A stretch of DNA of 64,000 nt from a bacterium (GTDB lineage: Bacteria > Bacteroidota > Ignavibacteria > Kapaibacteriales > UBA2268): NCBI GenBank assembly GCA_024711295.1, contig JANJTB010000040.1, positions 1 to 64,000 of the forward strand, written 5' to 3'. Made by a program: the position numbers and the translations under genes. A model generated the notes under the pieces. It made no database searches. It was not told the DNA's origin and saw only the letters and a list, made by a program, of their open reading frames with translations. Shown here in pieces: positions 7,154 through 18,523 of this stretch; position 1 is the first letter of the stretch, and every line of letters begins with the position of its first letter.

Positions 7154-8491
7154 TTACAGTGGAAGTGAGAATGTAAATTTGCTGCCTTCGCCCACTTTAC
7201 TTTTCACATCTATTCTGCCACCCAAAAATTCTGCCGCCTTCAATGCTATTGAAAGCCCGATCCCTGTACCTTCGTAAGGGCGACTAATGGAAGAATCAAC
7301 CTGAAAGAATTTTTCAAATATCTGTTTATGATGTTCTTCATTAATTCCTATTCCCGTATCTTCAACAAAGAACTCAACTTGATCGCCTAAATAGTTATAA
7401 CCAAATGTAATTACGCCTTCATCCGAAAATTTAACAGCATTGCTTAACAAACAATCCAGAACTAATGTAATCATTTTTTTATCGCACGTAACTTCAGCAA
7501 TTGCATTACTTTCAGGAATTTTCACTTCAAGCTTCTGACCTGAATAATAAACAGTCCTTTGATAGATTTCCAGTATATCATTAACCAGTTTTACAAGATT
7601 AATATTTTCAGGTTTAGGTTTTATCACACCTGATTCCATTTCAGAAAGAACGATGAGGTTGTCCATTGTAGTTATAAGTCTGTTGCTACCTTGCTGAACA
7701 TACTTACTATACTTGCTTGCATCACTTTCACTGATAGTTTTGTCTTCCAAAAGATTGAGATATCCTACCATCCAGTGAATTGGAGTCCGAACTTCGTGAG
7801 AAATATTTTGTAAGAAAGCAGCAATCAATTTATTGCTCAGTTCAGCTTGTTCCTTAGCTTGTACTAAATCTTCCAAATATTTCTTTTTTTCTGTAATATC
7901 AACAATCATCACATGACGCGCTGCAATTTCATTAAATATTACAGCATGTGAGTAAACATCTACAAATATTACATCACCACTTTTTGTTCTGTGTTTCCAA
8001 TTGAATGAAATCTGATAATCTTCGGTATGCTCAATGAGATTTTCTACCAACTTTGGAACTTCGTCACTTGGTCGAATATCTTTAAGTGTCATTTTCAAAA
8101 ACTCTTCTCTGGTAAAACCATATTTCTTGATTGCAGCATCATTTACTTCTATAAATCTTAAAGTATTAATTTCGTATATCCACATAGGAGCAGGATTGTG
8201 CAAAAATAATAAACTGAAGCTGTTCTTTTGTTCATTTAATTGCTGATTCAAAATATGCTCTTTTTCGATCTTTTGATTGAGTTTAGACACTAAATTATAA
8301 ATTAGGAAGAAAATAATTCCTGTAGTTATCGAAACAAAACCAAACCCTTTGAAAGTCTGAATTTGGGTAAGTACATCTTTGTCTGAGCTTAACGTCGAAA
8401 TGATGGTATCAGATAAATAAATATACAGAATACTTACTAAAAAATAAATTCCTGAAAATACTATTGCAGAGTTTCTTGGCTTAATCTGCAT
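7154..8491 (-). CDS. PAS domain sensor histidine kinase
   Basis: A 445-residue inner-membrane kinase. Two transmembrane helices (about residues 8-28 and 48-68) enclose a short periplasmic loop. A PAS domain follows (about 92-200, FLHNPAPMWIYEINTLRFIEVN). HisKA has the phosphoacceptor H232 in SHEVRTP. The HATPase domain has its N box near LLSNAVKFS, G1 in DTGIGI and G2 in GTGIGLSI. The N-terminal membrane segment resembles that of the kinase at 20343-22013 (IYLSDTI compared with IVFSDTI), so the two are likely paralogues. It lies 78 bases downstream of the B12 operon without a visible terminator, so some read-through is possible. No cognate regulator is adjacent. Confidence 0.93.
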   Translation of the reverse strand: MQIKPRNSAIVFSGIYFLVSILYIYLSDTIISTLSSDKDVLTQIQTFKGFGFVSITTGIIFFLIYNLVSKLNQKIEKEHILNQQLNEQKNSFSLLFLHNPAPMWIYEINTLRFIEVNDAAIKKYGFTREEFLKMTLKDIRPSDEVPKLVENLIEHTEDYQISFNWKHRTKSGDVIFVDVYSHAVIFNEIAARHVMIVDITEKKKYLEDLVQAKEQAELSNKLIAAFLQNISHEVRTPIHWMVGYLNLLEDKTISESDASKYSKYVQQGSNRLITTMDNLIVLSEMESGVIKPKPENINLVKLVNDILEIYQRTVYYSGQKLEVKIPESNAIAEVTCDKKMITLVLDCLLSNAVKFSDEGVITFGYNYLGDQVEFFVEDTGIGINEEHHKQIFEKFFQVDSSISRPYEGTGIGLSIALKAAEFLGGRIDVKSKVGEGSKFTFSLPL

Positions 8492-8569: not shown

Positions 8570-9658
8570 TTATCTTACAAAGAAAATATTATTGGGATTT
8601 TGGGATACTGTAAATGATCGAAGGAGTTTGTCACCATTTAAAAATACATGAATTTTGCCGTTATTTATATGATTAAGCGCATTTGCAATCCATATTGAAT
8701 TATCGAATGGTGATACTGTAAGTGAATACCAAATATCATATTTGACTGGGTTATGGATTATCATATTGCTTGATTTGTTCGTTAAATCAATAGTAGCCAC
8801 ACCCGACTGCTCGTTCATAGAGCTACCCTTGTGCATTTGACTTATAAATAACAAACTGTCCTTAGAGTTGGATAGGTTTACGGATCTTGCTCTGAGATTC
8901 CACCTGTATGTTTCCGAAAAATCATTGAGTGAATACTCTATTATCCCGCCGGGTTCGTTCTCCTTGGAGGGCAAATTGTAATAAATACCATATAGTTTGT
9001 TATTTTTATTATTTACAACTACCTCACAGCAATTTGGTCCACAACTTATTTTTTTTATCTCTTGTTTAGAAATTAAATCAATAACAGATATTGTTTCTGC
9101 AAATTCATGAGAATAGTTGAAATCTCCATAAGCAGAATTTGCTACAAACAAGTAATTATTATGCACTGCTATACCTTCGGGCTGAGGTCCGACAGGTATT
9201 TCATCAATATGCCCGTCCTTACCGATAATTAGCACAGAGCTCCTCAATAAACAACTTACACATAAATCATCTTTGAAAATATCAATACTACGTGGCATAC
9301 AATTCTCGGGGAGTATGATTTCTTTTATCTTTTTACCATCATTTACATTTACCATTCTGATAATTGATGCAGTGCTAAGCACAATATAAGCTGTATCTCC
9401 CCTGATGACTAAATCATTTGCTGTATCACCAAGTTTTTCGTTGTTGTTGGATAATTTGAAGAAATCACTTACTATAATTCCGCTTGAACTTTTTATCAGA
9501 CTAAGTGCAGAATTATCGTAGCCCTGCAAACCCTCGCACAATACCAGAATATCACCTTTTTGTGCTAATTCGGTATTAACTGGACTATTCTCTGATGGTG
9601 TTCTTACACAGGATACCAGACATAAAAAAAGTATTAGTATAGCGATGATTTTAATCAT
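8570..9658 (-). CDS. BtuG-like beta-propeller lipoprotein of the B12 uptake operon
   Basis: A 362-residue surface lipoprotein. The signal peptide ends LVSC with the lipid-bearing C17. The mature part is a YncE/DUF5074-type seven-bladed propeller, shown by repeated strands such as DTANDLVIRGDTAYIVLS, GPQPEGIAVHNNYLFVANS, and LTVSPFDNSIWIANA near the C-terminus. In Bacteroides, BtuG is such a lipoprotein: it caps BtuB and binds cobalamin at the cell surface. That role is inferred here from the fold, the operon position behind btuB and the B12 riboswitch. Its ATG overlaps the stop of the upstream gene by four bases (ATGA), a sign of translational coupling. Several cysteines (a GPNCCEV motif) are unusual for this fold. 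Confidence 0.8.
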   Translation of the reverse strand: MIKIIAILILFLCLVSCVRTPSENSPVNTELAQKGDILVLCEGLQGYDNSALSLIKSSSGIIVSDFFKLSNNNEKLGDTANDLVIRGDTAYIVLSTASIIRMVNVNDGKKIKEIILPENCMPRSIDIFKDDLCVSCLLRSSVLIIGKDGHIDEIPVGPQPEGIAVHNNYLFVANSAYGDFNYSHEFAETISVIDLISKQEIKKISCGPNCCEVVVNNKNNKLYGIYYNLPSKENEPGGIIEYSLNDFSETYRWNLRARSVNLSNSKDSLLFISQMHKGSSMNEQSGVATIDLTNKSSNMIIHNPVKYDIWYSLTVSPFDNSIWIANALNHINNGKIHVFLNGDKLLRSFTVSQNPNNIFFVR

Positions 9659-10548
9659 AATAAAAGTAATTTTTTACATACCATTTTATTTTCAATTATA
9701 AACTCCATAATCACCAATTTAGATTCTCTTACCTGAAGAAAAACAGAATTAGCATTAATCGTAAAAGGTATATTATAACCAAGTAAATCAAATATTCTAA
9801 AAGAGTTATCTGTTGGTAAAAAGTTCTCGAAACTTATTGAATTTCCGCTAACAGAAAACACCGGCAATAAACTATCATCAACTGAGCTGGACTCATCATC
9901 AAGATACAAGCCGACCACAGCATCAAGGTCGAAGCCCGAAAGTATAAATTCAGGATTATAATATTTGTGATTCTTAGGTAGCGAGCTAACGATTTTTGTA
10001 GTATCTTTTATCCTTATATATTTTATATATTCAAGACCTAAAAGTGCCAAATCAAAACCATCACCACCACTGATTTCAGGATTATATGGGTCCTTGTCGC
10101 CATAAGTGGGTGTCAGACCTGCCAAACCTTTTAATGTTGAATTATCAAATGGGAACTCAATGTAGTTAACTCCGTCTTTGCTGACTGAAACAACTGCCGG
10201 TTCGGCAAAAATACCATTATTAACAGGATTTATGAAGGCATTTTCAAATATTACAAAATCAATTCCGGGACCATTTTTTAAAACTTTACCTTCGAATTCT
10301 AATGTTATTTCGCCACCAAACCCGATTGGTTCAATTTCTATCAGTGAATTTTCGGGAATGGATTTAGATGCAATACGTGAAGGAATACCAAAAATATTTT
10401 TGGGAAAGTGTTCATTATTGAGCAGAGAATCATCAACTGCACCACGCTGATACTTCACTACTTTATTAATTGTACCTACCTCTGCTGACAAGCTTGCAAT
10501 ACTTGTTAGAATAAATATAATTATTATCATATATTTCAGGTTATTCAT
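9655..10548 (-). CDS. Exported B12-operon protein of unknown function
   Basis: A 297-residue secreted protein with a Sec signal peptide (MNNLKYMIIIIFILTSIASLSA). The body reads like the cell-surface beta-sandwich proteins often found in Bacteroidota B12 loci: GFGGEITLEFEGKVLKNGPGIDFVIFENAF, then VSKDGVNYIEFP, GGDGFDLALLG and IKYIRIKD, a jelly-roll-like layout. The last 80 residues (RIFDLLGYNIPF and following strands) look like a degenerate T9SS type A sorting tail, but the canonical YPNP motif is missing. It sits between btuB (6 bases away) and the BtuG-like gene (4-base overlap). The operon places it in corrinoid capture, and its exact role is unknown. Confidence 0.75.
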   Translation of the reverse strand: MNNLKYMIIIIFILTSIASLSAEVGTINKVVKYQRGAVDDSLLNNEHFPKNIFGIPSRIASKSIPENSLIEIEPIGFGGEITLEFEGKVLKNGPGIDFVIFENAFINPVNNGIFAEPAVVSVSKDGVNYIEFPFDNSTLKGLAGLTPTYGDKDPYNPEISGGDGFDLALLGLEYIKYIRIKDTTKIVSSLPKNHKYYNPEFILSGFDLDAVVGLYLDDESSSVDDSLLPVFSVSGNSISFENFLPTDNSFRIFDLLGYNIPFTINANSVFLQVRESKLVIMEFIIENKMVCKKLLLL

Positions 10549-10554
10549 ATTTTG

Positions 10555-12543
10555 TTACTCGATATTAAACTTGACACCAGCCCTGATAATTCTTCCGGGC
10601 ATAGGATAATTAAGAACGATAGAATAAGATTCGTCAGTGATATTATCACATGATAAAAAAACTCTGCTAGAAAAATTTTGTATATTAATATCTTTGGATA
10701 TACGAATATTAAGAGTATAATATTCAGGCAATACGGAATTTAACTCATTACTTTGCAAAGAATATCTGAATGATGCATAGCTCAAAAATCCACTGAGGTC
10801 GAAATCAAAAATAGTCGCATTCAATCCTATGTTTATCAATTCCTGAGGTACATATACCAAATAATTTCCACTGTTCAGACTATTTTCAGATACATCTTTT
10901 GCTTCCTGATAAGTGTAGTTTATCATCATAGTCATTTCATCTTTTATCAAACTTATTCTGCTGCTGAGCTCAAAACCGATATTCTTAGTAAATCCGATAT
11001 TTTGGGCAGACCATATTGCAGGACTTTTTGGAACAGCAAGAATCAGATCTCGAGTGGAAGTAATGAATCCGCACAGTTCGACTGTAAACAGATTATTATT
11101 ATATTCGATACTCGAAGTATAATTCAGAGCCTTTTCAGGTCTTAAGTCTGCAGTACCATAGTTTAGATAATACAATTCGTTGAAAGATGGTACTCTGAAA
11201 TTATATGATACATTTGTTTTTATAAGCATTGACCACTTTGTTAATCCAAGAACAATCCCAAGAAATGGTGAAACAGCAGACTCGTTGTCATTAAATATAT
11301 CGCCCCTTACATTTGTAAGTATCAATAAATCTGACGAGTTATCGAAATAATATCTATATTCAGCACTAAGGCTAAGTGCAAAATTATTTCGCTCGATTTT
11401 ATCATCCGAAACTTTTTGCAGAAAATCACCCTTTATACTTGACATGTTTTGTTCTGCTTTTATACCTAGGATGAAATCCCCCAGTTGACGTTTGGCATCA
11501 ATAAAAATGGAAAAATCAAATGAGGTAAAGAAATTATCCAATGTCTTTCCATCCAAACCAAGTGATTGTTGGTCTGTATATCTGAAATTATTGATTCTAA
11601 AATTTACTCCGTTATTGACAATAAAATCCTTAAAATTAATATCCTTTCCTTGTAAAGAAAACAGAAAGTTATTTTCTTCAAGATTAGCATCAGCTGTTTC
11701 AATAAACCCCTGAAGCAATGCTCCGGGCACACCCCGTCCGGAATGTGTAAAAATCATTGTTCCTATATATTGGGAACCGAAAACAGTCTGAGTTGCATTC
11801 AAAACTGCACTTATACTGCTAAATTTATTATTTTGCCTTACTACTTCTTTGGACTCGCCAAATTGCTCGGTAGTAATCGGGAATGTGCCATCAGTATGTT
11901 TGTACTCCAAAGCTGCAGAAATATTTATCTTACCTAAATTGTTAGAGGCAAATATTGAGAACAAATTCTCGTTGAAACTGCCATAAGCTCCCATCAAACT
12001 AACTCTGTCTTTACTGTTATTATCCAGTGATAAATTAACTACTCCCCCCATTGCACCCGAACCGTAATAACCCGAAAGCCCCGTACGAATGACTTCGATA
12101 TTATCAAGCATGGTCAATGGTATTGTGCTTAGCTCGGCGATTCCATTTTGATTTGAATTGATGCGTGCTCCATTAAGTGTTATAATTGTTTGGTTAGAGG
12201 ATGTACCACGCATAGATATGGTTTTCATACTCGATAAGCCACCATAATCTTTTATAAATATTCCTGGAATAAAATTCAAAACATCAGATATCTGTGTAAT
12301 CGAAATCTTCTCAAATTCACTTTTTGTTAGAAATGTTCCGGGTGATACATAAGTACTTGAAGCACCTTTGTATCTATCTGCATTTACCTCTACATCCGGA
12401 AAAACTTTGTAAGTGGAGTCGCTAAAATAATTATTTCCATGACTTAAAGAGAAACTCTCCAGACTCAATAAAATTACAAAAACAGGAACTGCCCTATAAA
12501 TAAGGTAGTTCCCGTTAGTTTTATGAGAAAGAGGATTATACAT
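10555..12543 (-). CDS. btuB: TonB-dependent receptor, BtuB-like cobalamin transporter
   Basis: A 662-residue outer-membrane receptor. After an N-terminal signal region there is a TonB-box-like stretch (FPDVEVNADR). The plug domain spans about residues 55-170, with LNFIPGIFIKDYGGLSSMKTISMRGTSSN-type plug sequence and VIRTGLSGYYGSGAMGGVVNL. The rest is a 22-strand barrel that ends in an aromatic-rich strand. The length matches the BtuB/CirA class. B12 as substrate is inferred from the adenosylcobalamin riboswitch upstream and the BtuG-like lipoprotein downstream. It is third from the promoter end of the block after the 804-residue protein, with 43 bases between them. No BtuCDF genes are in this window. 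Confidence 0.88.
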   Translation of the reverse strand: MYNPLSHKTNGNYLIYRAVPVFVILLSLESFSLSHGNNYFSDSTYKVFPDVEVNADRYKGASSTYVSPGTFLTKSEFEKISITQISDVLNFIPGIFIKDYGGLSSMKTISMRGTSSNQTIITLNGARINSNQNGIAELSTIPLTMLDNIEVIRTGLSGYYGSGAMGGVVNLSLDNNSKDRVSLMGAYGSFNENLFSIFASNNLGKINISAALEYKHTDGTFPITTEQFGESKEVVRQNNKFSSISAVLNATQTVFGSQYIGTMIFTHSGRGVPGALLQGFIETADANLEENNFLFSLQGKDINFKDFIVNNGVNFRINNFRYTDQQSLGLDGKTLDNFFTSFDFSIFIDAKRQLGDFILGIKAEQNMSSIKGDFLQKVSDDKIERNNFALSLSAEYRYYFDNSSDLLILTNVRGDIFNDNESAVSPFLGIVLGLTKWSMLIKTNVSYNFRVPSFNELYYLNYGTADLRPEKALNYTSSIEYNNNLFTVELCGFITSTRDLILAVPKSPAIWSAQNIGFTKNIGFELSSRISLIKDEMTMMINYTYQEAKDVSENSLNSGNYLVYVPQELINIGLNATIFDFDLSGFLSYASFRYSLQSNELNSVLPEYYTLNIRISKDINIQNFSSRVFLSCDNITDESYSIVLNYPMPGRIIRAGVKFNIE

Positions 12544-12586
12544 ATTATATGTTCAAAAAAGTCTTTTATGGTATATTAGAGCCAAA

Positions 12587-15001
12587 TTATCTAATTACAT
12601 TAAAGACTAATGATTTGATTTCAGAGCCATTTATTATTCTAAGGATATATGTACCTGATGAAATGTTAATATCTCTGAGATTAATGGTTTTGCTGATTCT
12701 ATAATCAGCATTGTAGCTAATATCGAATACTTTATCACCGTTTATTGATATAATTTCAAACTTTACATTTGGATTGGTAATATCTCTGAGTTCAGCTTCA
12801 ATATTGATAAAATCGCTTGCAGGATTTGGATAAACAGACATCATGCCTACATTTCCACGACCGAATTCCTTAATTGAGGCAAGTAATGATGAAACTATCG
12901 TAACTTTGTTGTTAATGTTTCCGTTGTTGTAAGCAGATGTAGCTGCAATCAAAACATCCGAAGGGTCCGAGTTTAGAATAACACTCTCTGCTGGTAACAG
13001 GACAGGTAAGAAATTTGAAATTCTGAAACTATATACATCCATTGAGTTATTTATGATAAATGGTCTAAGGTCTCCAAAATCTGTACCTGCCATTATCACA
13101 TCGGGGTGCTGAGGAATCGGATTTTTGAATGCCATAATACTTAGTGGACCCCTGCCATAGTTTGTTCCTGTTTTGAGGACAGTCTTTTCATTACTTTCTG
13201 CATCAATAACGGTCACATCATCGCTTGTATTAGATGCCGAAATCAACAAATTGCCGATATTTGCTAATGCAAATGATCCATCACTTACGGGAGAAACGTT
13301 ATTTAGCGAAAAGTCCTGCATGTGCAGAATAGGACCATACATAATAAATGGTTGAGTGCCATTTTCTTTACCGGTTAGTATTGCCAGACTAATCTCGGAG
13401 TCGCCTGTTTCTTTTTTGGTCAAGGTATAATACTTAAGGTCTAAAACGTGGTCGCCGGCATAAACCTTTTGCAACACAGCCCCCGACTTGAGGTTGATTA
13501 CTACAATTGAGTCCGGAGTTTCTTCGTGTCTTACAGCTGCCATAAGATGAGTGCCTGCCATATCGAGAGCTACGGCGTCAAATTCAGCTACAGCATCGTC
13601 AATAAGTTCGTAAGTTTCTGCATCATAAGCTTTTATATATCCTGCCGCAGGTAGATATAGAATTTTTGTATCACTGTTATAAGCAGGTTTGAACGGATAT
13701 TTCAAATCTCCAAAACTCAGTTCAGCTCTTTTCTGAACCTGTAATTGATTATTATTAATTTCAGCAGTCCACCATGATGGCAACTCTTCACCATTGTCAT
13801 AATTACCGTTACCGTTGATGTCATTTCCACGACAGAAAATATGCAGCTTTTTGGAACTGCTTTCGAAGAGCAAACCTACGGGGGCAGAACCTACCTCGAA
13901 CTGTTTCAAAAATTCGGGCAAGCTGATATCCTGTATTTCCCATAATTGAATTAAGTTTGTTGAGCCGTAGTATGTATCATAAGGAGCTGTAGTGACAAAA
14001 CTTGACTCATACCATTCACTGATTCCTTCTAATTTGTAGGCATCACCCTGGTCGTTGAGAACGTCTAAAAGCATTCCTGTAAATGCATCGTGCATCATCA
14101 CACTACCCTGATATGTCGAGGTTAGCAGTTTGTCACCTATGATAAGCGATTCACGAGGTCCGTCCCAACCACTTGTTCCGTTGTACCAGACTTCTGTATT
14201 TCCTGACTCGATATCGCAGACAATTACATTATAACCCATATTATCAGTTACAAATAATTTGCCGCTGTGATAAAACACATGATTAACAGCACCGCCAACT
14301 TCGAAGTTTTTGGTGGGAATAAACTTGTTGCTTTGATTCAGATATCCAATGGATAGGTTTGATTTTCCCTTGCCGAATTCTCCCTGAGTAAGGACAGCAA
14401 TACTAGTATTAGCTATTTCAGGGTAAAAAATTGACTGAATAGGATTAGGAGCTGTTTCGCCTGATTCTGTTAAAGTACTGTTTGTCAAATCATAAATATG
14501 AATTTTACCGGTAACGTCAAGACCGTCAACAGTAGTAATAAGCAGCTTATTATCATGATAATCAATCGCCGAGGCATCAATCTGAGCAAAATTATCATTT
14601 GATATTGTTTCACCATCCAGGTCGAGAACAATTATTTTCCCTTCGAGTGGTAACCACAATGATTGTGATTCATCATCTATTGCCGGACGAAACGGACGAT
14701 AATTAAGGTACTCATCAAATTCCATTACCATGCGTGCTTCTTCATCCGGATGCTCCAGCACCCACCATGATGATTTTACATCACCATCGTCGTATTTGTC
14801 GTTATAGTTATTATCAATACCCGCACAAAAGATGTGCAATTTAGGGTATCCATTTTCACCTGTTTTCCCTTTAATAGCCTTCATCGGGCTGGGACCTACT
14901 TTGTAGGTATTAGTAATGTCGAATGTATAGTTTTGAGCAGAAAGCTTATTGGCTGCAGTTATTAGCAATGCTAAAGCTAAAAATCTTATCAAATTGTACA
15001 T
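12587..15001 (-). CDS. T9SS-targeted tandem beta-propeller surface protein, B12 operon
   Basis: An 804-residue secreted protein, first gene under the cobalamin riboswitch. It has a Sec signal peptide (about residues 1-22) and ends with a T9SS type A sorting domain (YPNPASDFINIE from about residue 735, finishing in SGTYILRII and SLVFNVIR). Between them lies an internal duplication. KLHIFC at residues 54-59 recurs at 385-390, each followed by Asn/Asp/Gly-rich turns, a YD-x-G motif and a WW pair, then WLPLEG or YLPAAG, KIIVLDLD or YIKAYDAE, and a propeller-like repeat series. Two units of about 330 residues are therefore present. The Asp/Asn loops look calcium-binding. A role as a surface corrinoid binder is inferred from its operon. 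The start is ATG at 15001 (GGGG upstream). Confidence 0.85.
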   Translation of the reverse strand: MYNLIRFLALALLITAANKLSAQNYTFDITNTYKVGPSPMKAIKGKTGENGYPKLHIFCAGIDNNYNDKYDDGDVKSSWWVLEHPDEEARMVMEFDEYLNYRPFRPAIDDESQSLWLPLEGKIIVLDLDGETISNDNFAQIDASAIDYHDNKLLITTVDGLDVTGKIHIYDLTNSTLTESGETAPNPIQSIFYPEIANTSIAVLTQGEFGKGKSNLSIGYLNQSNKFIPTKNFEVGGAVNHVFYHSGKLFVTDNMGYNVIVCDIESGNTEVWYNGTSGWDGPRESLIIGDKLLTSTYQGSVMMHDAFTGMLLDVLNDQGDAYKLEGISEWYESSFVTTAPYDTYYGSTNLIQLWEIQDISLPEFLKQFEVGSAPVGLLFESSSKKLHIFCRGNDINGNGNYDNGEELPSWWTAEINNNQLQVQKRAELSFGDLKYPFKPAYNSDTKILYLPAAGYIKAYDAETYELIDDAVAEFDAVALDMAGTHLMAAVRHEETPDSIVVINLKSGAVLQKVYAGDHVLDLKYYTLTKKETGDSEISLAILTGKENGTQPFIMYGPILHMQDFSLNNVSPVSDGSFALANIGNLLISASNTSDDVTVIDAESNEKTVLKTGTNYGRGPLSIMAFKNPIPQHPDVIMAGTDFGDLRPFIINNSMDVYSFRISNFLPVLLPAESVILNSDPSDVLIAATSAYNNGNINNKVTIVSSLLASIKEFGRGNVGMMSVYPNPASDFINIEAELRDITNPNVKFEIISINGDKVFDISYNADYRISKTINLRDINISSGTYILRIINGSEIKSLVFNVIR

Positions 15002-15071
15002 AATAAATCCCCATAATTATTTTATTTTGAATAATAAACGAGATGAGAATTTATGCTATAAGATATGCATG

Positions 15072-15099
15072 CCTCCTGATAAAAATCAGGTTTTTTTTT
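15072..15099 (+). terminator. Terminator-like hairpin in the B12 leader (plus-strand sense)
   Basis: The stem CCTGAT / ATCAGG is followed by nine T on the plus strand. No plus-strand gene precedes it. On the minus strand the same hairpin follows the riboswitch and its 3' arm runs into AGGAGG, so it may be part of the expression platform or may block antisense transcription. Confidence 0.45.
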
Positions 15100-15139
15100 G
15101 CGTTCCCATCGCGTTTGTACGTCGCAAACTTCCAATGAG

Positions 15140-15323
15140 TGCTCCCCGGCAGATATTCTGACTCTACTTTCAAACCTTGCACCCCACCTTCCCATAAAAT
15201 TAATACAGTGGCTGTCTTCGACGACAAGGGATGCTCGTACGGTATCACAGCGGCGCAACCGTGCAGGATTTTCACCTGCTTCCCTAAATATCAAAAAAAC
15301 TTTAATATTTATTCCGGCGAACA
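15140..15323 (-). ncRNA. Adenosylcobalamin (B12) riboswitch
   Basis: The minus strand shows the conserved core in order: GGGAAGCAGGTGAAAATCC, CTGCACGGTTGCGCCGCTGTG, the B12-box-like GCCACTG, GGGAAGG and CAGAATATCTGCC. A P1 stem closes it: TGTTCGCCGG (15314-15323) pairs with CCGGGGAGCA (15140-15149) with one mismatch. It sits between a matching promoter and the operon at 15001-8570, which should be switched off when cobalamin is plentiful. The start codon is about 140 bases further down, and no classical minus-strand terminator is visible, so control may act on translation or by another fold. Confidence 0.95.
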
Positions 15324-15333
15324 TTTCAGAGTA

Positions 15334-15364
15334 CAAAAATAGTTCTTTTGTCTTTATAATCAAA
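15334..15364 (-). promoter_or_regulatory. Promoter of the B12 operon
   Basis: The minus strand reads TTTG (complement of 15361-15364), 19 bases, then TATTTTTG (15334-15341), a perfect Bacteroidota TTTG/TAnnTTTG promoter. Transcription would start a few bases before the riboswitch P1 stem at 15323. Confidence 0.75.
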
Positions 15365-16306: not shown

Positions 16307-18523
16307 TCACTTGACAAATTTTAATATCTTATTACCCACTCTAACGAAATAAACTCCCGGTGTATAATGGCTAATATCCAAATTAGACGAAGAATAATCA
16401 CCGATTTTCTGACCTAAAGAGTTGAAGACCGAATAATTGTCTGATGGAATTATCACATAATCTGAGCTCGGATTTGGATAAATAAGCAATTCATTTTCCT
16501 GATTATCGCTTACAGAGTTATTGAACATTTTATTGAAAGCAGCCCCGGCATTCAGTTTACCATAACCCCATACATAGTTAGGAGTTGTACCTGTTTTATT
16601 GTCAGAAAAGGCAGTAACTGCAATTGCCTGTGCTACTGCAGAATATGTGGCTGTTTCCCACGCTTCGAGCATAGCAGCTACCGAGCCGGCAACAATAGGC
16701 GCAGCCATACTTGTACCGTTCATACCACCGAGCAAATCACCCTCGAGGGTATACAGTTCCGAAAATTCGGCGTCTTTTGATTTAGCTGCAAAAATTACCT
16801 GCCCTGGTGCAGCAATATGCGGCGCGTATCTGCCATCTCTTGTTGGTCCTTTTGATGAGAATGTTGAGATATCGCCCTTAATCCACCCACGCTGAACAAG
16901 GGTAGAATTCTTATCAGTCCATTCATTCTTTGTTACAAATGAACCGGCAGAAATAATATTTCTACCACTGCCAGGTGCACCAACGGTCATTAGAGTATTT
17001 CCGGTAAAGTATTTTGTACCCACCATTGGTTCGAATGGAATAGCTGCAGGTATAGGTACTCCTGCCCAAATATTTACCTCAGTATTCTTTTTGGCTTTCA
17101 AAATGATTGACCAAATATACTTGTCGACAGGTATATTTGTATTGCCCAGATTGTGGAGTAGCAAAAACATATTTGCATCACCATTGGTTGGGAATTCCGG
17201 AACATAGTTGTAGTTGATAGCCCCCAAAGGATTGTTGTTCTCGTCGTAAATCATTGTTTCGGCGAATGCTGACTCAATAGGAAAAGTGAATTCCTTTGCT
17301 ATTTCTAATCCAGTCTGTCCCATAGTATATGCAGCTAATGTAACTGAGTCGAAAGATTCAGCTGCGAACCATGCATCAGCTCCTGTCATAAAGTAGTTGG
17401 GTATATCAGGGCATAAGTCATCAAGCATTTCACAAAGATTTTGCGGGAAAATCGGAAATTCAACGGTTTCACCTTCTTTAACAGCTCCTCCGGCATGCAT
17501 CGGCATCTCACCTTCATTTCCGGCAGAAGCCACAATCAATCTGCCCTTTCTTACCATTCCAGATAATGCATAAGACAGTAAATCCATACCGTCATGCGGA
17601 CCAATCATTCCGCCGAGACTTAGATTTACTACAGCAGGTTTTTTGAGCTCGTCAGCAATACCGAATATATATGAAACACCATTAATAATATTGATATCGC
17701 TGAAGTTACCACTTTCTTCATCAGTAATACCTTTTACAAAAATTACCTCAGAGTCGTATGCTACACCTCTGAATCCGGCTTTAGCATAGTCGCTTCCAGC
17801 AGCAATAGAAGTAACATGAGTTCCATGACCATGCCAGTCACGTTGTTTTACAAGTTCAGGAGTATTGTCTATTTCAGATTTGTCGTATTCTCTGCCATAA
17901 TTATATCCAACGGGAGGTTTTGCGTCCTGAGTTTCTGTCATATCCCATATTTTTAGAATTTTGCTACCGGATTTACCATACATGTCTTTGTTTAGATCAG
18001 AATATTCAAAGTCAGGATGTGTAAAATCAATTCCTGTATCTACCACTCCCAATAGGACACCTAAACCGGCATAATCCAAAAATGGCGGCATACCTTCGTC
18101 ATGTCTGATGTTTGAAGCATTAACCCAATGAAGACTTTCGTCAAGACTTTTCTTGTACAACTGAGATAGCTCAGCAGCATATATATTTTCGGCTGACAAC
18201 AGCTTTTCAATACTTTCGAAAGGTAATCTAAGACCTGTGACTGAATTTGTCTTTGCAATAATTTTAGCACCGATTACATCCAGCTCGCTGTCAGAAATGT
18301 TGCCAAGTACCAAAATATCAACAAATAATTTTTCATTCATCACTTTGAATGGATGGCTGATTCTTGGATTGGCAAGAAAATTATTTTCATTTTTCATGTA
18401 ATGATTCATTTTCTCAACAATCACACGTGATTTTGCTGTCATTTTGTTATAATATTCTTGTGTGTAAGAATAACTTGTTATAAATATAAATGACAAAATA
18501 AGGAATAAAAACCTGTTGCTCAT
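16307..18523 (-). CDS. Subtilisin-like serine protease (S8) with T9SS sorting tail
   Basis: A 738-residue secreted protease. It has a signal peptide (1-22), then a propeptide-like region to about residue 145. The S8 domain has D162 (VDTGIDFTHPDF), H233 (HGHGTHV), the oxyanion N336 (SAGNEG) and S605 (NGTSMAAP). An insert of about 170 residues lies between N336 and S605, like the PA-type or beta-rich insertions of large surface subtilases. A T9SS type A sorting domain closes the protein (YPNPSSDYVIIP, YTPGVYFVRVGNKILKFVK). It should be exported through T9SS and released or anchored at the cell surface to degrade proteins. It is co-transcribed with the upstream small lipoprotein (19-base gap). 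Confidence 0.94.
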   Translation of the reverse strand: MSNRFLFLILSFIFITSYSYTQEYYNKMTAKSRVIVEKMNHYMKNENNFLANPRISHPFKVMNEKLFVDILVLGNISDSELDVIGAKIIAKTNSVTGLRLPFESIEKLLSAENIYAAELSQLYKKSLDESLHWVNASNIRHDEGMPPFLDYAGLGVLLGVVDTGIDFTHPDFEYSDLNKDMYGKSGSKILKIWDMTETQDAKPPVGYNYGREYDKSEIDNTPELVKQRDWHGHGTHVTSIAAGSDYAKAGFRGVAYDSEVIFVKGITDEESGNFSDINIINGVSYIFGIADELKKPAVVNLSLGGMIGPHDGMDLLSYALSGMVRKGRLIVASAGNEGEMPMHAGGAVKEGETVEFPIFPQNLCEMLDDLCPDIPNYFMTGADAWFAAESFDSVTLAAYTMGQTGLEIAKEFTFPIESAFAETMIYDENNNPLGAINYNYVPEFPTNGDANMFLLLHNLGNTNIPVDKYIWSIILKAKKNTEVNIWAGVPIPAAIPFEPMVGTKYFTGNTLMTVGAPGSGRNIISAGSFVTKNEWTDKNSTLVQRGWIKGDISTFSSKGPTRDGRYAPHIAAPGQVIFAAKSKDAEFSELYTLEGDLLGGMNGTSMAAPIVAGSVAAMLEAWETATYSAVAQAIAVTAFSDNKTGTTPNYVWGYGKLNAGAAFNKMFNNSVSDNQENELLIYPNPSSDYVIIPSDNYSVFNSLGQKIGDYSSSNLDISHYTPGVYFVRVGNKILKFVK

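Follow-up and report, generated by a model that had tools for sequence, protein, structure and literature searches.

The closest described systems are the BtuG operons of Bacteroides, in which a riboswitch and btuB are found (passages of PMC10404256 and PMC6143338), and the operon considered here is of the same kind. In PMC10404256, the transfer of the corrinoid from BtuG to BtuB is reported for Bacteroides, and cyanocobalamin is described as bound by BtuG2 through 13 hydrogen bonds, all contributed by propeller blades 1 to 4. The accessory corrinoid binders of Bacteroides are presented in the relevant parts of PMC6143338, PMC10404256 and PMC12751083 as surface lipoproteins. No description of a corrinoid binder delivered by the type IX secretion system (T9SS) was found in openly licensed PMC papers (PMC8941943 and PMC9723704 among them), which does not prove its absence in print. 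As judged from sequence comparison and genomic setting, the leading protein of the present operon, referred to as protein A, is probably such a T9SS-delivered corrinoid binder, working with BtuG and BtuB in a B12-repressed uptake operon.

The original prediction had placed a riboswitch and four same-strand genes in one operon within the window (the whole stretch of DNA analysed, 64,000 nt), and both the list of open reading frames (ORFs) and the Rfam scan agree with this arrangement and its coordinates (Table 1). The four ORFs are co-directional, with 43 nt between A and the BtuB-like gene, then 6 nt, then a 4-nt overlap, and A starts 129 nt behind the riboswitch. The latter is the sole Rfam match at the gathering threshold in the window and the sole RF00174 match reported in the 3.45-Mb genome. 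Just upstream lies a box of the pattern TTTG-N19-TATTTTTG, which we take to be the promoter consensus of the Bacteroidota type; since this pattern occurs seven times in the window against 3.1 occurrences expected from shuffles, the box is weak when considered alone and is backed mainly by its position. A scan of the sequence for sigma-70 promoters performed no better than on shuffles. Upstream of the operon, a subtilisin-like protease with a T9SS tail is encoded at 16307-18523 (-), and btuG is followed on its own strand, after 78 nt, by a gene for a PAS histidine kinase at 7154-8491 (-).

Table 1. Features of the riboswitch-led operon (positions in the 64,000-nt window)
Feature	Position	Strand	Remarks
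Promoter-like box, presumed Bacteroidota type, TTTG-N19-TATTTTTG	15334..15364	(-)	Just upstream of the riboswitch
Cobalamin riboswitch aptamer, RF00174	15131..15333	(-)	Score 70.5 bits (gathering score 31.5); full-length match, model positions 1-189; window E-value 2.2e-15
Protein A, 804 aa	12587..15001	(-)	Two propeller units between a signal-peptide-like start and a T9SS type A tail
Protein A, unit 1	13940..14917	(-)	Keeps several motifs common to the family and BtuG: G-FG, NH, GPRE, K-EG
Protein A, unit 2	13019..13906	(-)	Motifs lost (GPLS, PAES and others)
Protein A, T9SS type A sorting tail	12620..12835	(-)	Residues 723-794, E 8.8e-9 (Por_Secre_tail); second search at the same place, 42.1 bits
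BtuB-like TonB-dependent receptor, 662 aa	10555..12543	(-)	
BtuH-like exported protein, 297 aa	9655..10548	(-)	C-terminal likeness to a T9SS sorting domain at the level of the family profile, not of the window sequence alone
BtuG lipoprotein, 362 aa	8570..9658	(-)	

Protein A had been predicted to form tandem propellers, and its AlphaFold2 model is indeed all beta, with tandem-propeller proteins as Foldseek matches, at low TM-scores; BtuG is absent from the 50 matches listed for this model. The relationship to BtuG becomes visible with profiles alone, a phmmer search with the single A sequence having returned no PDB match. A profile built from 11 tandem relatives of A retrieved BtuG1 first (E 1.9e-26), with BtuG2 and BtuG3 at 6e-21 to 2e-16 and T9SS tails also matched, and the first entry that is neither BtuG nor a tail stood at 1.9e-5. 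A second profile, from 27 single-unit relatives, matched BtuG1 (1.4e-22) and BtuG2 (2.4e-12), and also the archaeal YVTN propeller 1l0q (1.3e-12), level with BtuG2, as well as designed Pizza propellers from 7e-8.

When the alignments of the two families were compared with hhalign, the probability of the match was 99.3-99.4%, and the second half of the A unit was paired with the first half of BtuG. This pairing gave an E-value of 4.2e-23, against 3.6e-4 for the same half with the second half of BtuG, and the first half of the A unit in turn matched the second half of BtuG at 1.1e-8 and its first half at 1.1e-5. The hhalign score was 147.5, with 137 columns aligned, for the A unit as it stands, and 203.3, with 302 columns aligned (BtuG 38-360), once its halves were swapped. 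Although propellers are repetitive in general, 20 cyclic shifts of A compared with BtuG yielded one peak, at the swap cut (201.0; lowest score 110.1). The stretch 190-535 of tandem A, which bridges both units, likewise aligns to BtuG over 302 columns (E 3.4e-23). Because nearly the whole length of BtuG is covered by one A unit only once this unit has been cyclically shifted, A looks like a circularly permuted relative of BtuG, with a blade order along the chain that differs by an offset of about half a propeller. The strongly matching part corresponds, by residue count rather than by mapping on a structure, to approximately blades 1 to 3 or 4 of BtuG. The N-terminus of A, by reading, has no lipobox cysteine; instead, the protein ends in a T9SS tail that scores 36 bits against a cut-off of 27 bits. 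The claim that the leading protein is T9SS-tailed rather than a lipoprotein therefore holds, and SprA is encoded in the same genome (SprA_N, E 2.9e-41), in which at least 150 T9SS tails were scored.

The two units of tandem A proteins are homologous to each other (E 5e-60). In the window protein, unit 1 has, besides the kept motifs of Table 1, a Q in place of the E of NEG and no NGSH, and unit 2 has lost the shared motifs. Since only one of these two propellers keeps the shared motifs, a larger A need not mean two binding sites. The three nearest tandem relatives (L064, L071 and L072) show the loss on the same side as the window protein, unit 2 of L071 and L072 keeping NH, and unit 2 is the better kept in L062, L042, L052, L039 and L059, without the EG motif in the last two; L061 and L057 keep most motifs in both units. 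Single propellers make up 27 of the 38 A genes in the first genome set described below. Thus, where the original prediction spoke of a second, larger, secreted corrinoid binder, the riboswitch operon and the T9SS tail stand, but the large tandem form is one variant among others. At E 0.01, a T9SS tail was recognised in 10 of the 11 tandem A proteins, compared with 12 of the 27 single ones.

In a tree built from 27 single units together with both units of 15 tandem proteins (30 units), several changes between single and tandem labels are needed, at least 3 to 4 being forced by the starred branches, with the reservation that unit 1 of L062 is a long branch and unit 2 of L059 is partial. All six units from L147, L164 and L165 group together with full support, in a clade apart from the window lineage, from which it follows that tandem forms arose more than once. 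Genome G630 has three tandem-propeller A genes in a row between its riboswitch and the BtuB-like gene (L206:766-7959), and L208 has two. The window's own genome additionally encodes, on contig C38 (L003:535-1902, (-)), a 455-aa single-propeller paralogue of A with a T9SS tail, located beside sigma-factor-like and membrane-protein ORFs in a 3.3-kb locus where no riboswitch was found; this paralogue may have a different ligand.

Whether homologues of A lie mostly outside B12 loci was checked in two genome sets. For the first, 294 genomes of the class were searched with A residues 58-804 (tail included), and 38 matched at E 1e-8, none of the matches listed being confined to the T9SS tail. A cobalamin riboswitch is present in 36 of these 38 genomes, and in each of the 36 a same-strand A gene starts at most 271 nt behind it, negative gaps being an artefact of start-codon choice. 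The remaining two, G206 and G217, belong to one genus, and in both A adjoins a BtuB-like gene; the genes that follow had been guessed from their lengths to be btuCD, and the one tested is a CheB-type response regulator instead. At E 1e-30, the profile of the A unit matched 91 of the 123 genomes of the order, and the remaining 57 of those 91, which do not overlap with the first set, constitute the second set. Here the riboswitch occurs in 52 of 57 genomes and A lies directly behind it in 51, with one genome having the two on different contigs; no riboswitch was found in the other five, one of which has A at a contig start. Three gaps of 1.26-1.28 kb belong to tandem A genes; in these, the first unit begins about 150 nt behind the riboswitch. 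Homologues of A are therefore mostly found at B12 loci, in 87 of 95 genomes directly behind a riboswitch and most often in genomes with a single one. Of 395 genomes across the phylum, 154 have a match to the unit profile (E 1e-6). Among the matches listed, full-length ones come from the window's order and from a single further genome of its class; the rest lie mainly within positions 165-320, which is what BtuG proteins would be expected to give.

The gene make-up of these loci is variable. In the 38 loci of the first set, some of which end at a contig edge, a BtuB-like gene is present in 21, a BtuH-like gene in 13 and BtuG in nine, and 17 have A behind the riboswitch with no BtuB-like gene seen in the stretch covered. 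In eight genomes where the receptor is not linked to A, a BtuB-like gene was always found elsewhere, and four of the eight have BtuH-like and BtuG genes next to that receptor gene. A 1054-aa gene that follows A in one family, considered as a candidate B12 receptor, encodes Sortilin/BNR repeats instead. Among the best 80 of 202 named BtuH-like loci, 26 contain an A gene; ten of these were scanned and all ten have a riboswitch, with A first in seven, and the BtuH-like gene first and A last in three. In these three, L147 and L164 (both KSB1) and L165, the riboswitch is followed by BtuH-like, BtuB-like, BtuG and tandem A genes, in this order. The named relatives come mostly from Kapabacteria, Ignavibacteria, Bacteroidota or Chlorobiota MAGs, and L137 (Armatimonadetes) and L148 (Desulfobulbaceae) look like mislabelled or mixed bins. 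G164 (genus g21) has, in addition to its first cobalamin riboswitch, a weaker one that lies ahead of a distant BtuH-like gene (L078:2770-3720).

Regarding the proteins encoded behind A in the window, the receptor had been rightly called BtuB-like, as it belongs to the TonB-dependent receptors and, among NCBIfam models, scores best with TIGR01779 (B12 receptor; E 5.6e-42), although its 144.1 bits remain under the cut-off of 599.7. The same applies to the BtuG-like lipoprotein, which over residues 36-360 matches the BtuG1 structures 8ptf, 8ptd and 8blw (E 2.8e-22 to 1.1e-21) and starts with MIKIIAILILFLCLVSC, lipobox-like as read from the sequence. The 297-aa secreted protein, left without a name in the original prediction, matches on its own just NF033170, a model of an uncharacterised Leptospira-type lipoprotein (45.6 bits against a cut-off of 120). 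A profile of 13 relatives, however, has the H-domain of BtuG1 as its first PDB match (8blw 433-497, E 2.8e-5), through profile positions 66-125 and the pattern GGxIxVGF...DFxI...NA...AEPxxVxVSkD, the match being partial because 60 of about 230 core positions are covered. The same profile matches BtuH2 (7biz) weakly (0.27), and Foldseek with the model of the 297-aa protein places 8blw at rank 4 (E 2.5e-3), with no match at E 0.001. By virtue of the domain match at the profile level, this protein is BtuH-like, which rules out its treatment as an unknown. It may also be exported by the T9SS, as the family profile matches the T9SS sorting-domain structure 8glk (E 1.9e-4), and TIGR04183 and PF18962 were detected in eight (E 0.1) and six (E 1) of the 13 relatives, respectively; neither model was found in the window protein.

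Taken as a working model, scarcity of cobalamin would permit expression of the operon, given the family to which the riboswitch belongs. Protein A would then cross the inner membrane by means of its signal peptide and the outer membrane through the T9SS, and would either stay on the cell surface or be shed. At least unit 1 would hold a corrinoid in the way BtuG does, and A together with the BtuH-like protein would catch corrinoids outside the membrane-bound BtuG-BtuB gate and hand them to BtuG, which would pass them to BtuB for TonB-driven import. The genome encodes a B12-dependent MetH and three matches to methylmalonyl-CoA mutase, CbiC (de novo cobalamin synthesis) was not found in it, and a plasmid search gave no match. 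A more far-reaching reading, which we hold tentatively and at slightly less than even chances, is that the main B12-regulated corrinoid catcher of this whole lineage outside the cell is a BtuG that has been circularly permuted, duplicated repeatedly and routed through the T9SS. It would act ahead of the BtuG-BtuB gate, and most tandem forms would have kept one binding site while losing the other.

Alternatively, A could be a secreted accessory or structural propeller of the B12 locus that descends from BtuG but has lost corrinoid binding, and that might dock on BtuB or BtuH, or bind protein-bound corrinoids. The loss of the shared motifs in unit 2 of the window protein, and in one unit of most tandem proteins, fits this, and there are precedents in B. 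theta, where BtuK2 and BtuL, from such operons, did not bind cobalamin (according to passages of PMC12751083). However, each of the 11 tandem proteins has at least one unit in which more of the motif set is retained, and the 17 loci with A behind the riboswitch and no BtuB-like gene seen suit a binder better than the partner of an adjacent receptor, so that we regard this loss of function as unlikely. It is less probable still that A is an unrelated beta-propeller enzyme or adhesin merely residing in the operon, its likeness to BtuG being the general likeness of seven-bladed propellers. The matches of the single-unit profile to 1l0q and the Pizza propellers would be in line with such a generic resemblance, but with the tandem profile BtuG (down to 2e-16) stands clear of other propellers, a single best cyclic register spans the whole of BtuG, and the linkage to the riboswitch recurs in 87 of the 95 genomes.

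If A is a corrinoid binder, as we favour, its location would still have two outcomes. The type A tail of a T9SS cargo is cleaved off during export, and some of these proteins are set free, so A and the BtuH-like protein might act in the medium as diffusible, siderophore-like corrinoid scavengers rather than being held at the surface; however, anchoring to lipopolysaccharide is common among T9SS type A cargoes. Even though the vesicle-linked BtuJ of B. theta has been proposed to act in a siderophore-like fashion (PMC12751083), release of both proteins appears the less likely outcome.

A corrinoid binder delivered by the T9SS would mean that the outer step of B12 capture can leave its membrane anchor. 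In this little-studied lineage, the position of what appears to be a rearranged BtuG relative directly behind a B12 sensor suggests a second, so far unstudied, extracellular route to the vitamin, and a group named in Pfam by its tail only gains a testable function. Moreover, the A family represents a natural experiment, in which a half-swapped BtuG occurs, single or doubled, in many B12-needing genomes, so that corrinoid site, blade order and number of sites can be compared directly. Among known systems, PorZ (5m11) resembles A in having two propellers followed by a T9SS-type tail, and it is found at Foldseek rank 4 with the A model, but PDB sequence searches from A gave no match to it and its locus differs. 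BtuJ and DUF4465 proteins are likewise extra exported B12-binding proteins of such operons (parts of PMC13398666 and PMC12751083), although DUF4465 is not among the Pfam matches of either A or the BtuH-like protein. The latter matches part of the H-domain of BtuG1 and, weakly, BtuH2, yet it differs from BtuH in standing alone, without a lipobox, and in having a C-terminal T9SS-like part in place of the N-terminal PKD or propeller domains. Finally, the propeller of A is homologous by profile to BtuG1/BtuGH, BtuG2 and BtuG3 of Bacteroides, but it starts halfway round, exchanges the lipid anchor for a T9SS tail and may be duplicated, and the operon that it leads retains an ordinary BtuG as well.
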